Positions 1 through 6,035 of a stretch of DNA of 6,113 nucleotides are shown in pieces (positions within the stretch are counted from its first letter, which is position 1; each line of letters starts with the position of its first letter). The notes beneath the pieces are model-generated. The model did no database searches. It saw only the letters and a list, made by a program, of their open reading frames with translations, and was not told the DNA's origin. A program made the position numbers and the translations under genes. Origin of the DNA: Hyphomicrobiaceae bacterium (GTDB taxonomy: Bacteria; Pseudomonadota; Alphaproteobacteria; Rhizobiales; Hyphomicrobiaceae); assembly GCA_020442225.1 (NCBI GenBank), contig JAGRKR010000318.1:1-6113 (forward strand), given 5' to 3'.

Positions 1-1073
1 GCGATCCGGCGGATCGTCTCGGCCGGGATGCCGGTCACCTCGGCGGCGCGCTCCGGCCCGTGCTCGTCGGCCAGGAAATGCCGGGCCATCAGCTCGAATA
101 CCGGCCGCGCCTTGCGCCCATCCGGCAACGTGATCTGGCCGGAGAGCTGAGGCGCGATGTCCGGCAGGTGCGCATCGACGATGGTCTGGCTCTTCTGGTC
201 GAAGGCGCGGGCGTGACCATGCTCGTCGCGCAGCACGAGGCCGTCGTCGGCGCTGCCGGGGTTGTCGATGATCAGCCAGGGCGCGTTCGTAAATCGAATG
301 AGAAAATCGAGGTCGATGCTTTGCGAGCGGAACAGCTCATGGATCAGCGCCGCCACGAAAATACCGTCGGTGCCGGGTTTCAGGCCGATCCACTCGTCGG
401 CGATGGCGTTGTAGCCGGTGCGGACGGGATTGACGGCGAGCACCTTGGCGCCGCGCTTCTTCAGCTTGCCGAGGCCGATCTTGATCGGATTGGAGGCATG
501 ATCCTCGGCGATGCCGAACAGGATGAGGTACTTGGTCAGATCCCAGTCGGGATCGCCGAATTCCCAGAATGCGCCGCCGAACGTGTAGAGCCCGGCTGCG
601 GCCATGTTGACCGAGCAGAATCCGCCGTGCGCGGCGTAGTTGGGCGTGCCGAACTGCACCGCCCACCAGCCGGTCAGCGATTGCGACTGGTCGCGACCGG
701 TGAAGAAGGCGAGCCGCTTGGGATCGCTGCCGCGCACGTTGCCGAGCCACTCGGTCGCATGGCCGAGCGCTTCCTCCCAGCTGATCTCCTTGAATTCACC
801 GGAGCCGCGCGGCCCGACACGCAGCAACGGCGCCCTCAGGCGCGCCGGCGAATAGTGCTGCATGATGCCGGCCGAGCCCTTGCCGCAGATGACGCCGCGG
901 TTGACGGGATGCTGGCGGTTGCCATCGATGTAGCGGACCTGGCCGTTCTTCAGGTGCACGCGGATGCCGCAGCGGCACGCGCACATGTAGCAGGTCGTGT
1001 GCTTGATCTCGTCGCCGACGGGGGCGGAAAGCTCTAGGCTCGGCTCGGCTGGCGCTGCGGTCTGCCCGGTCAT
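1..1073 (-). CDS. Molybdopterin-dependent oxidoreductase catalytic subunit, SoeA-like (partial, 3' end outside window)
   Basis: I translated the reverse strand from the ATG at 1073; it is open to the window edge, giving 357 full codons. Residues 28-35 read CYMCACRC, the C-x2-C-x3-C of the N-terminal [4Fe-4S] site (C28, C31, C35), and C63 in VICGKG is the expected fourth ligand. Cys153 in GGFCSVNMAAAG, followed by YTFGGAFWEFGDPDWD, sits where the family places the molybdenum ligand (Cys here, not selenocysteine). A cofactor-binding stretch follows (KYLILFGIAEDHASNPIKIG, then VLAVNPVRTGYNAIADEWIG). There is no Tat signal before the first cluster, so the enzyme should be cytoplasmic. The wording of the N-terminus recalls SoeA, the catalytic subunit of the cytoplasmic sulfite-oxidising SoeABC complex; this is from memory, and formate dehydrogenase or nitrate reductase relatives remain possible. 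The partner FeS and NrfD-type membrane subunits would lie beyond position 1. The start is supported by GGAG (complement of 1078-1081) four bases upstream. Confidence 0.9.
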   Translation of the reverse strand, partial: MTGQTAAPAEPSLELSAPVGDEIKHTTCYMCACRCGIRVHLKNGQVRYIDGNRQHPVNRGVICGKGSAGIMQHYSPARLRAPLLRVGPRGSGEFKEISWEEALGHATEWLGNVRGSDPKRLAFFTGRDQSQSLTGWWAVQFGTPNYAAHGGFCSVNMAAAGLYTFGGAFWEFGDPDWDLTKYLILFGIAEDHASNPIKIGLGKLKKRGAKVLAVNPVRTGYNAIADEWIGLKPGTDGIFVAALIHELFRSQSIDLDFLIRFTNAPWLIIDNPGSADDGLVLRDEHGHARAFDQKSQTIVDAHLPDIAPQLSGQITLPDGRKARPVFELMARHFLADEHGPERAAEVTGIPAETIRRI

Positions 1074-1476: not shown

Positions 1477-2241
1477 ATGCGGGTGTGGTTGAACCAGCTC
1501 TTGCGCAGCAAGCGTGGCGGGGACGACGGCATGCGTTCCGGTGCTGCGGATGGCGCGCCCGCGGCGGCCGACCCCGGCTCTTCGGCGGTCGCGCTGCTCT
1601 CGTCGGGCGACGGGACCACCATCGAGGTGGACGGCTCGCGCGTGGAGGCCGGCCGGTCCATCGTCATCGGGCGCCACGCGAGCGCCGACGTCGTCGTCGA
1701 CGACGATTGCATCTCGAAGCGTCACGCCGAGCTGAGCCTGAGACCGGACGGCCGCCTCGAGGTGCGTGATCTCGGCTCGCTCAACGGCACCTGGACCTCT
1801 GGCGGCCGCGTCGACGCCGCCGTCATCGCCAGCGGCGAGCGCGTCCGCTTCGGGCACCGCGAATACACCGTCATGCTCAAGCGCGACATGGAGGCGGCGC
1901 GCGAAGCCGGCTGGATGCTCTCGTGCTTCGACGAGGACGGCCAGGTCATGCAGCTCGAATTGCGGCCGGAGACGGACCCGCAAAGCGGACTGGCCATGGA
2001 GTCCATCTGGTCGGTGGGCCGCGCCGACGACCTTGTCGATGTCGTCATCGAGCGCAACGACATATCGAAGATGCACGCGCGCTTCCGCTTCATCCCCGGC
2101 ATGGGGCTCGAGGTCATGGACCTCGGCTCGACCAACGGGACCTTCGTGGACGACGAGCGGATCGACGGAAACTATCGGCCGCTCTCCGGGGCGGAGTGTA
2201 TCCGCTTCGCGACGATCGAATTTACCTTGAGCCGGCTCTAG
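1477..2241 (+). CDS. Soluble tandem FHA-domain protein
   Basis: This 254-aa protein is predicted to recognise phosphothreonine through two forkhead-associated (FHA) domains. FHA-1 covers about residues 45-134: GR at 65-66, S80 with H83 in SKRHAEL, and N103-G104 in GSLNGTW. FHA-2 covers about 146-254: GR at 181-182, S197 with H200 in SKMHARF, and N220-G221 in GSTNGTF. There is no signal peptide or membrane segment, so it should be cytoplasmic. The N-terminus (MRVWLNQLLRSKR) is short, basic and possibly amphipathic, and is followed by an Ala/Gly-rich linker. The double-FHA unit is clearly related to the C-termini of the two protease-FHA proteins downstream; FHA-2, which starts GWMLS, is closest to that of the second one. 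It may be an adaptor or competitor for the same ligands. One oddity is Leu102 in FHA-1, where a Thr or Ser usually precedes the Asn-Gly. The ATG at 1477 is chosen over a TTG at 1399, which would add 26 residues. No partner kinase is visible. Confidence 0.88.
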   Translation: MRVWLNQLLRSKRGGDDGMRSGAADGAPAAADPGSSAVALLSSGDGTTIEVDGSRVEAGRSIVIGRHASADVVVDDDCISKRHAELSLRPDGRLEVRDLGSLNGTWTSGGRVDAAVIASGERVRFGHREYTVMLKRDMEAAREAGWMLSCFDEDGQVMQLELRPETDPQSGLAMESIWSVGRADDLVDVVIERNDISKMHARFRFIPGMGLEVMDLGSTNGTFVDDERIDGNYRPLSGAECIRFATIEFTLSRL

Positions 2242-2425: not shown

Positions 2426-4159
2426 ATGGCGGGCGGCATCGGAGTGGGGCTCGTGAGCACGGCTCGGGCCGTGACTCGGGTCGCGAGGTTGTTGCGACTT
2501 GCCGTTCTCCTGTGCGCGGCCGTGGCCCTGGCGGGCTTCGACGTCCAGAAGGTCGAGGACAGCGTCGTTCGCGTCTTCGCCAGCGGTCAGGGACGCCTCT
2601 CCACGGGCTCGGGCTTCGTCGTCTCCGGCGGCACGGTCGTGATCACCAACAATCACGTGGTGGCTGGACGCAACAACATCTTCGTCGGGATGCTGGAAAA
2701 GGGCGTACCCTTTTCCACGCCGGCCCGGCTCGTCTATGCCGATCCCAGCCGCGATCTCGCGGTTCTGCGCACCGAGCGGCGCATTCCCGGCTCCATCGCC
2801 AAGATCGCCGACTACGAGCCCAAGAAGGGTGCGGAGCTGGTGGCCCTGGGCTTTCCGGGCTACGCCGACGAGAAGTTCCCTCGCGAGGCGTTCGAGGGCC
2901 GGTTCAGCAAGAAGATGTTCGATGCCACGCTGACCAAGGGCACCGTATCGCGCTTCCTGGACAGCTATGGCAACCGCACCGGCCGCGTCATCCAGCACAC
3001 GACCACCATCAATCGCGGGAACAGCGGCGGTCCGCTGTTCGACGCCTGTGGCAACGTCGTGGGCGTGAACACCTTCGGCAAGCTCGACAGTCAAGGCCGC
3101 GAGCTCGTGCCGGGCATCTATTTCTCCATGCATTCGAGCGAAGTTCTGGCCGTGCTGCGGCGAACGGGCCTCGAGGCCGACCAGATAGTCAAGAGCTGCG
3201 ATCCGAAGCCCATCGTTCTCGCCGCGCCGCCGCCTGCCCCCGCGCCGGCGCCGAAGATGACGCTGATGTACGCGCTGTCCGGCGCGGCGCTGTTCATTGC
3301 CATGATTTCGACGATGACGGCTCTCATCGCCTATCGCCGAAAGCCCGAGCTCATCCGCGTGCCGTTGTCGCGCCTCAGCGAGTCGGCCTCGCGACTGTTG
3401 CGGCGGCCGGGCTCTGAGAAGGTGCCCGCGCCGAGGCGGGCGCAGCTCGACGATCGCGCCATCGAGAAGCGGGCCTTGCCCCTCAAGTCCGCCGACGTGG
3501 CGCCGACCGACGCACTCAAGCAGCTCGTGCTGGAGCCGCAGTCGTCCGGCTTCGATCCGATCCGGATCGAATTCGACCGCTTCGCCTCCGGCCGGCGGCT
3601 GCTCGTGGGGCGCGGTAGTGGATCCGACGTGGTGGTCGCGGACCCGTCCGTGTCGAGCCGTCATGCCGAGCTGTCGCTCGACGAGCGTGGACGTGTGCAC
3701 GTCGCCGACCTGCAGTCCTCGAATGGCACCTGGGGTGACGACGGGCGCGTCACGCGGGCCGTCCTGAGCAACGGCCAGACGCTCCGCTTCGGCAAGATCG
3801 CCTATACCGTGCGTCTCGGCGGCATGCTTGACAACCGCGCGGCGGCGCAGACGTGGGTGCTCGAAGGGAGCGATGAGGCGGGGCGCAGGCATCGCCTCAA
3901 GCTGGTGGCGACGGGCGAGGCGACCTGGATCATCGGGCGGGAATCTCCGCCCGCCGACCTGCTCGTCGAGAATGCCAACGTGTCCAAGCAGCACGCGCGC
4001 TTGCGCTACCGGCCGGGCAGCGGGCTCGAGATCGCCGATCTCGGCTCGACCAACGGCACGCGCGTCGACGGCGAGAGTGTGGGGAGTGGCTATCGCAGTC
4101 TGGCGCGCGCAAGAAGGGTTCAGGTGGCGGGCGTCGTGCTTGAGCTCAAGCAGGGTTGA
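2426..4159 (+). CDS. Membrane-anchored trypsin-like (HtrA-type) serine protease with cytoplasmic tandem FHA domains, copy 1
   Basis: 577 aa. Residues 18-36 are a basic-then-hydrophobic export signal with a possible signal peptidase site at ALA-G (34-37). Residues 38-256 are a trypsin-fold protease with a complete triad: H77 in TNNHVV, D110 in SRDLAVL and S200 in GNSGGPL. No PDZ domain follows, unlike DegP/DegQ/DegS. Only two cysteines, C208 and C258, lie in this part, suggesting a disulfide. A Pro/Ala-rich spacer (267-276) leads to a membrane helix (about 278-303) followed by basic residues (YRRKPE), which places the C-terminus in the cytoplasm. Two FHA domains follow: about 367-464 (GR 395-396, S410, H413, N433-G434) and about 476-577 (GR 504-505, S520, H523, N543-G544). 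All key residues for phosphothreonine binding and for proteolysis are present. I infer that binding of a phosphoprotein in the cytoplasm recruits or controls a periplasmic protease. The downstream gene is a tandem paralogue. If residues 18-36 are not cleaved they act as a signal anchor, and the topology of the rest is unchanged. The substrate is unknown. Confidence 0.9.
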   Translation: MAGGIGVGLVSTARAVTRVARLLRLAVLLCAAVALAGFDVQKVEDSVVRVFASGQGRLSTGSGFVVSGGTVVITNNHVVAGRNNIFVGMLEKGVPFSTPARLVYADPSRDLAVLRTERRIPGSIAKIADYEPKKGAELVALGFPGYADEKFPREAFEGRFSKKMFDATLTKGTVSRFLDSYGNRTGRVIQHTTTINRGNSGGPLFDACGNVVGVNTFGKLDSQGRELVPGIYFSMHSSEVLAVLRRTGLEADQIVKSCDPKPIVLAAPPPAPAPAPKMTLMYALSGAALFIAMISTMTALIAYRRKPELIRVPLSRLSESASRLLRRPGSEKVPAPRRAQLDDRAIEKRALPLKSADVAPTDALKQLVLEPQSSGFDPIRIEFDRFASGRRLLVGRGSGSDVVVADPSVSSRHAELSLDERGRVHVADLQSSNGTWGDDGRVTRAVLSNGQTLRFGKIAYTVRLGGMLDNRAAAQTWVLEGSDEAGRRHRLKLVATGEATWIIGRESPPADLLVENANVSKQHARLRYRPGSGLEIADLGSTNGTRVDGESVGSGYRSLARARRVQVAGVVLELKQG

Positions 4160-4301: not shown

Positions 4302-6035
4302 ATGAAACTGATGCTCGGGACACGGAGATCGCTGCAACGGCCAGCCGGTAACGCCTTGCGTGCCTTGGCACTGATTGCGGTCGCGTTCCTCTCGATGGGA
4401 CTCGACGTCAAGACGGTCGAGGACGGGGTCGTGCGCGTCTTCGCCATTCGCGGCCAGCGCATGAGCCTGGGCACCGGATTCCTCGTCCAGGGCCAGAACA
4501 TCGTCGTCACCAACAATCACGTCATCGACGGCGGCGAACGCTTCGTCATCGGCACACTCGACGGCGGGCGTGCCGTGTCCAAGCGTGCGACCGTGCTCTA
4601 CGTCGATCGCCAGAAGGATCTCGCCATTCTCCGGACGGAGGGCAGCCTGCCGGGCCGCTCGGTGCCGCTCGCGTCCTATGAGCCCGCCAAGGGCTCGGAC
4701 GTGACAGCCATCGGCTATCCCGGCGCCGCCGACGACGAGACGCAGCGGCGCGGCGCCTCGGGTGAGCTCGAGCCCCGCCTGTTCGACAGTACGGTGACCA
4801 AGGGGACCGTGTCCCGTATGGTCGACGGCGCGCTCGGCAACACGGCGCGCATGATTCAGCACAGCACGCCCATCAACCCCGGCAACAGCGGCGGACCTCT
4901 GTTCGACGATTGCGGCGCCGTGGTCGGTGTCAACACGCTCAGGAAGCACATGGTGCAAGGCCCCGGTGGCCGGCCGGACTTCATTCAGGGCATCTTCTAT
5001 TCCGTCCATACGAACGAGGTCATCAAGTTCCTCAAGCAGCACGGTTTCACGGCCGACCGCACGCGTTCAGGCTGCGCGCCGCGCGCGGCGGGCGGACCGA
5101 AACTGTCGATCATGTACGCGATTTCCGGCGCGGCGCTGCTGATGGCGACCTTCGCGGCGCTCATCGCCTACTACCGCAAGCCCGAGATCATTCGCGTGCC
5201 CCTGTCCCGCGTCGGCGAGACGGCGTCACGCCTGCTGCGGCGGGCGCCGAGCACGGGCGGCGGCAGCCAGAGCGGAACCTATGGGGGCAGCCAGGGCGGC
5301 CTGCCGCCGGCGCGGCCTTACCGCAGCAGTGCCGTCGGACAGGGAACGCTGCCTGCGACGGGGCAGATCGCGCAACTCGTGCCGATCGCGGGCGGCAGCC
5401 CCATCATGATGGACATCACGAGGCTGTCGGGCGGCAGCGCGCTCGTGCTCGGCCGCAATGCGAGCTGCGACATCGTCATCGGCAACGACACGGTCTCGAG
5501 CCGCCATGCCCGTCTCTCGCTCGACTCCAGCGGCCGCTTGCGGATCGAGGATCTCGGCTCGTCGAACGGCACCTGGACGACGACCGGCCGCGTCACGGAC
5601 ATCAGTCTCGACACCGGTGACGCCATCCGCTTCGGCAAGGTGAGCTTCACGGTCATGCTCCCGAGCGCCGGCTCGGTCTCACAGGGTGTGCGCGCGATGC
5701 CGTCGGGTTGGATGTTGTCCGGCTTCTCGCAGGGCGGACAAGTGATCCAGTTCGTGCTGCGGCCAGAGGTCGATGGCACCGGCAATCTCGTTGAAACGAC
5801 GTGGTGCGTCGGACGCGATCCCTCGCAGGCGCACTTCGTCATCGACAGTCCCGAGGTCTCGAAGCAGCATGCCAACCTGCGCTTCGTGCCGGGCAAGGGG
5901 TTGCAGATCTGTGATCTCAACTCCACGAACGGAACTGCCGTCGACGGCAAGGGCGTCGGCACCAGCTATCGGTCGCTCGACGGCGTGCGCAAGGTCAGCT
6001 TCGCCAAGTTCGATCTGACGCTGAGTACGCTCTAG
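4302..6035 (+). CDS. Membrane-anchored trypsin-like (HtrA-type) serine protease with cytoplasmic tandem FHA domains, copy 2
   Basis: 577 aa from the ATG at 4302; an ATG at 4257 would add 15 residues before the export signal. The order of parts matches the upstream gene. There is a hydrophobic export signal (about 18-33), then LDVKTVED, which aligns with FDVQKVED of copy 1. The protease domain (about 34-256) has H73 in TNNHVI, D106 in QKDLAIL and S196 in INPGNSGGPL. The only two cysteines outside the cytoplasm are C204 and C258. A membrane helix (about 268-290) is followed by basic residues (YRKPE). A Gly/Ser/Gln-rich linker (about 318-336) replaces the charged linker of copy 1. FHA domains follow at about 358-453 (GR 384-385, S399, H402, N422-G423) and 469-577 (GR 504-505, S520, H523, N543-G544). 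Both active site and phosphothreonine pockets look intact. The two copies clearly differ in sequence across all domains, so the duplication is not recent and the copies may have different substrates or ligands. The specific function is unknown. Confidence 0.9.
   Translation: MKLMLGTRRSLQRPAGNALRALALIAVAFLSMGLDVKTVEDGVVRVFAIRGQRMSLGTGFLVQGQNIVVTNNHVIDGGERFVIGTLDGGRAVSKRATVLYVDRQKDLAILRTEGSLPGRSVPLASYEPAKGSDVTAIGYPGAADDETQRRGASGELEPRLFDSTVTKGTVSRMVDGALGNTARMIQHSTPINPGNSGGPLFDDCGAVVGVNTLRKHMVQGPGGRPDFIQGIFYSVHTNEVIKFLKQHGFTADRTRSGCAPRAAGGPKLSIMYAISGAALLMATFAALIAYYRKPEIIRVPLSRVGETASRLLRRAPSTGGGSQSGTYGGSQGGLPPARPYRSSAVGQGTLPATGQIAQLVPIAGGSPIMMDITRLSGGSALVLGRNASCDIVIGNDTVSSRHARLSLDSSGRLRIEDLGSSNGTWTTTGRVTDISLDTGDAIRFGKVSFTVMLPSAGSVSQGVRAMPSGWMLSGFSQGGQVIQFVLRPEVDGTGNLVETTWCVGRDPSQAHFVIDSPEVSKQHANLRFVPGKGLQICDLNSTNGTAVDGKGVGTSYRSLDGVRKVSFAKFDLTLSTL

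Follow-up and report, generated by a model that had tools for sequence, protein, structure and literature searches.

Our understanding of HtrA-type periplasmic proteases is built on PDZ domains, which sit on the same side of the membrane as the protease; DegS- and MarP-type proteases act in envelope stress. An FHA-like domain occurs at the inner membrane in the YscD-type inner ring protein of the type III secretion system (T3SS), where it is cytoplasmic and is followed by the helix and then by periplasmic ring domains. The Fha protein of the type VI secretion system (T6SS) is encoded together with T6SS and PpkA/PppA genes. Here we describe a 6,113-nucleotide stretch of DNA from a Hyphomicrobiaceae bacterium (contig JAGRKR010000318.1; hereafter the window), in which an open reading frame, ORF A (2426..4159, forward strand, 577 amino acids), encodes a signal segment, an S1C-type protease, a transmembrane helix and two successive FHA domains, as judged by the ORF call, Pfam and an AlphaFold model. 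We consider it somewhat more probable than its contrary that ORF A is a periplasmic protease, anchored in the membrane, which threonine-phosphorylated partners in the cytoplasm recruit or cluster through its tandem FHA domains.

Architecture and conserved residues of ORF A and ORF B

A recheck of the reading frame together with Pfam bears out the coordinates, residue numbers and domain calls that a sequence-only reading had given for ORF A. Trypsin_2 covers residues 61-214 (2606..3067; E 8.2e-26), and a fold match over residues 35-250 assigns the protease core the fold of DegS/MarP-type proteases. The catalytic triad, which that reading had called intact, consists of H77 (2654-2656), D110 (2753-2755) and S200 (3023-3025); the three columns are conserved in 121, 121 and 122 of 122 aligned proteins, comprising ORF A, ORF B and the 120 homologues listed of 4533 below E 1e-3. 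Pfam, the alignment and the fold match therefore agree on the chymotrypsin-like fold with a His-Asp-Ser triad by which HtrA/Deg (S1C) proteases are recognized. Both proteins nevertheless fall below the cut-off of TIGR02037 (84.1 bits for ORF A and 84.7 for ORF B, vs 416.2), of the MarP model NF033740 (89.7 and 70.1 bits, vs 250) and of every other Deg/HtrA NCBIfam model listed. Neither has a Pfam PDZ match, in keeping with the absence of PDZ claimed earlier, and behind the ORF A protease the AlphaFold model has a linker, a helix and FHA blocks.

The two FHA stretches of ORF A (E 1.2e-30 in Pfam) span residues 389-462 (3590..3811) and 498-574 (3917..4147); the FHA scores are 106.2 and 102.9 bits, over two stretches each, against a gathering threshold of 20.7. 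The phosphopeptide-binding signature, GR/S/H/NG, had been described as intact, and it proves invariant in both domains of all 42 aligned rows that carry two FHA domains, a set containing two rows nearly identical to ORF A and ORF B. The invariant Gly-Arg, Ser, His, Ser and Asn-Gly positions are G395, R396, S410, H413, S431, N433 and G434 in the first domain and G504, R505, S520, H523, S541, N543 and G544 in the second, and we take them, from FHA structures, to include the phosphothreonine contacts. Over all 122 rows, 120 retain R396 and 121 retain S410, but just 98 retain N433. This constraint is the strongest evidence at sequence level that phosphothreonine binding may be important, and it suggests that the FHA pairs of both proteins bind threonine-phosphorylated proteins. 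An E-T/S-x-S-like pattern past the helix is shared by ORF A and ORF B with some of the one-FHA relatives; it was considered as an intramolecular phosphosite and dropped because most two-FHA relatives lack it.

Two hydrophobic segments frame the protease. Hydropathy windows of ORF A peak at about 15-43 and 278-303, and the AlphaFold model, a structure prediction that the sequence-only reading had proposed, places helices at residues 11-34 (2456..2527), the export segment, and 279-305 (3260..3340), the transmembrane helix, with a predicted local distance difference test score (pLDDT) of at least 90 in most ten-residue blocks of the protease and the FHA domains. By eye, an Ala-Leu-Ala/Gly site stands directly behind the export segment. 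Basic residues follow the transmembrane helix, as noted earlier, with one Lys/Arg in the 20 residues before it and five in the 20 after. Across the family, all 121 rows that carry one or two FHA domains have a segment above a mean hydropathy of 1.6, the threshold used throughout, between the protease and the FHA part, and in 109 of them Lys/Arg is commoner after the helix than before it. Among the two-FHA rows, 36 of 42 also have an N-terminal segment above this threshold, as do 54 of the 79 one-FHA rows. The topology first predicted for ORF A, with the protease outside and the FHA domains inside, is thus supported by hydropathy, charge and model, and remains a prediction of that kind.

A pair of cysteines is consistent with the same arrangement. 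C208 (3047-3049) lies eight residues past the catalytic serine and C258 (3197-3199) before the membrane helix, and the alignment retains both in 119 of 122 proteins, the exceptions being P0102, P0112 and P0114. In a control that covers the first position, cysteine is found at the C208 position in 0 of 20 S1C-type proteases of Planctomycetota, at whose loci the family FHA model detects no FHA domain in any frame of at least 60 amino acids. Columns aligned to the FHA half of ORF A hold cysteine in at most 13 of 122 rows each. The pair is confined to the protease half; a C208-C258 disulfide (3047..3199) would fit a protease outside and FHA domains inside, and the protease of ORF A and ORF B is probably disulfide-stabilized. 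The spacing from C258 to the helix has a median of 12 residues and reaches 44 to 93 in the 14 longest-spaced rows, all of them one-FHA proteins. These long spacers, most of them rich in Ala, Gln and Glu with a pattern that looks heptad-like (for example P0050, P0063, P0093, P0111, P0092 and P0112), perhaps form a coiled-coil stalk between protease and helix.

Duplication, relatives and gene neighbourhood

The sequence-only reading had presented ORF A as a trypsin-TM-FHA-FHA protein (TM, transmembrane helix). That architecture stands, but the protein is not a singleton: ORF B (4302..6035, forward strand, 577 amino acids), which starts 142 bp downstream, is a tandem copy 43.5% identical to it that shares the hydrophobic N-terminus, Trypsin_2, one hydrophobic helix and two FHA domains by Pfam and hydropathy. 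ORF B, the conserved cysteine pair and a soluble FHA-FHA protein encoded upstream are additions to the earlier account. Trypsin_2 and FHA occur together in 120 of the 120 listed homologues (precomputed Pfam), and a full-length protein 99% identical to ORF A occurs in another Hyphomicrobiaceae assembly; together these argue that the architecture is more than chance. Sources named among the listed homologues include Hyphomicrobium, Roseibium, Litoreibacter, Rhodospirillaceae, Pseudomonadota and one Candidatus Eiseniibacteriota.

By the FHA model, 79 of the aligned rows carry one FHA domain, 42 carry two and one, P0114, carries three. In P0114, two FHA domains stand ahead of the protease, in the opposite order, and the protein has neither a clear membrane helix nor the cysteine pair. 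A tree was built from 58 chosen rows by a quick method, with several long branches flagged; in it a single branch separates two-FHA from one-FHA proteins (Shimodaira-Hasegawa-like approximate likelihood ratio test, SH-aLRT, 96), and the second FHA domain therefore need have been gained or lost only once. The two window proteins fall into different groups, ORF B beside P0002-P0004 (SH-aLRT 94) and ORF A beside P0005-P0007 (SH-aLRT 84). P0004 and P0006 very likely come from one genome, and a second lineage therefore seems to keep one protein per branch.

A single scan of genome contigs yielded nothing beyond two distant Scalindua protease loci. One scan of IMG/VR yielded no relative and another 208, with an FHA domain detected by a family-built model in 0 of the best 80 (any open frame of at least 60 amino acids). 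Of the 294 Planctomycetota genomes searched, with at most five candidates scored in each, 46 gave a match at E 1e-30; the listed matches all end by model position 237 of 436 and therefore cover the protease only. The 20 control proteases without an FHA domain were taken from this set. Plasmid protein searches, with ORF A, family members, the Azospirillum lipoferum protein and its VWA-FHA neighbour as queries, gave A. lipoferum 4B as the sole FHA-bearing relative among the matches listed, which numbered 4 to 30 per search out of 4 to 746 matching records; a Bosea plasmid serine protease of about 321 amino acids was set aside as too short for the protease-TM-FHA architecture.

Within the window, the forward strand carries three FHA genes consecutively: orf0, ORF A and ORF B. 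The first of these (1477..2241) encodes a tandem FHA protein of 254 amino acids with no protease or hydrophobic segment by Pfam and hydropathy. It shares 43% identity with the FHA pair of ORF B and 42% with that of ORF A, and its next best match by E-value, its own entry P0121 aside, is 28% identical (among proteins 0.55-1.75 times its length); orf0 may be a lineage-specific, protease-less derivative. A molybdopterin oxidoreductase gene (3..1073, reverse strand; Pfam, NCBIfam) is divergent and extends past the window edge, and is regarded as a neighbour outside the system. Prediction over the window placed no promoter-like or terminator-like sites between the three FHA genes; the sites predicted in the window as a whole were dropped as operon signals, at two promoter-like sites against 0.5 expected (standard deviation 0.9) and four terminator-like sites against 2.2 expected (standard deviation 2.1). 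Pfam found no T6SS genes or PpkA/PppA among the four window proteins scanned.

One family neighbourhood was read, that of the one-FHA relative on plasmid AZO_p4 of A. lipoferum 4B (L004 7552-20364). Its genes all lie on a single strand, in the order DUF4384, OmpA, VWA-FHA, FHA, PP2C, PP2C, trypsin-TM-FHA, FHA-kinase-DUF805 and kinase by Pfam, with a hypothetical gene also included. The trypsin-TM-FHA protein keeps the catalytic triad and both cysteines. This case ties the kind of protein to Ser/Thr phosphorylation, not to particular partners in the host of the window. The cluster as a whole is a possible envelope phospho-signalling system.

Proposed mechanism and competing explanations

As far as sequence can tell, the domains, the intact catalytic and phosphothreonine-contact residues and the duplication are all in place. 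From them we infer that phosphorylation regulates proteolysis, by localizing or switching the protease, and we propose the kinase, the substrates and the role of orf0 on the same conditional footing. A Ser/Thr kinase would phosphorylate one or more membrane-associated partners, and the FHA pair would dock on these phospho-partners, so that the protease is gathered or clustered there and proteolysis outside the membrane tracks phosphorylation inside. PP2C phosphatases would undo the phosphorylation of the partners, and orf0 could compete for, or bridge, the phospho-partners of ORF A and ORF B. A broader proposal, which we hold only tentatively and think rather more doubtful than not, is a one-protein inside-out device: tandem FHA domains that read cytoplasmic phosphothreonine would directly govern the place or activity of the protease across the inner membrane, within a kinase/PP2C/FHA gene system found across alphaproteobacteria, with protease-less FHA paralogues as competitors.

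Several observations weigh against recruitment through phosphothreonine. The Pfam scan found no kinase or phosphatase among the window proteins, and the kinase neighbourhood is a single case that concerns a one-FHA relative. In that A. lipoferum protein the FHA domain has Gly-Ser for Gly-Arg and Asn-Lys for Asn-Gly, and judging from these substitutions it may not bind phosphothreonine canonically. The ORF A model drops below a pLDDT of 50 at residues 272-276 and 325-361, with a predicted template modelling score (pTM) of 0.52, and the linkers are poorly predicted; across the 122 rows, the odd P0114 included, the distance from helix to first FHA ranges from 8 to 120 residues. Such variable length and low model confidence speak against a rigid allosteric link, and for this reason recruitment is preferred over rigid allostery. 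Around the ORF B helix Lys/Arg counts are tied at 4 vs 4 (20 residues on each side), and the charge bias is opposite in 5 of 121 rows, four of the 42 two-FHA and one of the 79 one-FHA proteins.

The last of these points bears on whether the topology could be reversed, with the protease inside and the FHA domains outside, or with both inside and the hydrophobic segments peripheral. N-terminal hydrophobicity under 1.6, seen in 6 of the 42 two-FHA proteins and 25 of the 79 one-FHA proteins, would also suit such an arrangement; ORF A itself, however, combines a signal-like segment with positive charges past the helix, and the cysteine pair is restricted to the protease half, and we regard a reversed topology as very improbable. 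With the protease outside, the signal might still run inward: the protease would sense periplasmic damage, or cleave either itself or a partner protein, with the FHA tail as the output to a cytoplasmic kinase/phosphatase circuit. The DegS/MarP-type fold of the core, a cysteine pair that could be redox-sensitive and the place of the FHA-tailed A. lipoferum relative beside kinase and PP2C genes are all compatible with such a sensor. We consider it unlikely, though worth keeping in view, given that Pfam finds no PDZ-type sensor domain and the conserved FHA residues are the ligand-binding ones.

Phosphorylation need not be involved if the FHA domains simply anchor the protease to a membrane complex. 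YscD-type proteins of T3SS have an FHA-like cytoplasmic domain with phosphorylation-independent contacts, the FHA stretches here also score above the cut-off of PF16697, Yop-YscD_cpl (73.5 vs 33.2 bits), and the A. lipoferum member is without the FHA arginine. A static scaffold would have no need, however, of the Arg, Ser and Asn contacts that are invariant in both FHA domains of 42 of 42 proteins, and we regard it as quite unlikely, though, like the sensor, still a live alternative. Recruitment of the protease by phosphorylated partners, if true, would open a direct route from Hanks-type kinases to envelope proteolysis, in which PDZ is replaced by a phosphothreonine reader across the membrane; alphaproteobacterial kinases would gain a new type of target, and the idea can be tested with one protein.

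Comparison with described systems

A 2008 survey lists an FHA-FHA-Tryp protein of Bacteroides thetaiotaomicron, NP_811686.1 (PMC2605481). According to the available part of that survey, it resembles ORF A in combining two FHA domains with a trypsin domain in a single chain, with the FHA domains N-terminal and the order hence opposite, and the same part of the text contains no experiment on it. In the Agrobacterium T6SS Fha/TssL circuit, an FHA protein reads phosphothreonine made by the Ser/Thr kinase PpkA (PMC3953482). This is a precedent for an alphaproteobacterial FHA domain that reads a kinase mark, and the accessible portion of the paper names no protease. Two eLife papers on conflict systems describe trypsin effectors and FHA domains (PMC7159879, PMC8195603), and the protease-TM-FHA architecture is absent from their excerpted text. 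A search of the open-access literature, a scope that leaves most subscription papers outside, gave no experimental description of a trypsin-TM-FHA protein. The sequence-only reading had called this a candidate for an undescribed system, which holds insofar as that search showed no experimental report, but not for the architecture itself, which recurs in alphaproteobacteria and is common in sequence databases. The trypsin-TM-FHA protein is built from familiar parts, whose combination points to a new regulatory logic, and is apparently unstudied by experiment.

Against the nearest described proteins, the differences are specific. The YscD-type layout differs in that the FHA domains of ORF A, which are the PF16697 matches, lie C-terminal to the helix and the protease precedes it. 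MarP (Rv3671c) has a multi-helix domain where ORF A has one N-terminal hydrophobic segment; ORF A and ORF B score below its family cut-off and carry FHA tails. From HtrA, DegP and DegS of the S1C family, ORF A and ORF B are set apart by the lack of PDZ, a C-terminal membrane helix with an FHA pair, and an extra pair of cysteines.
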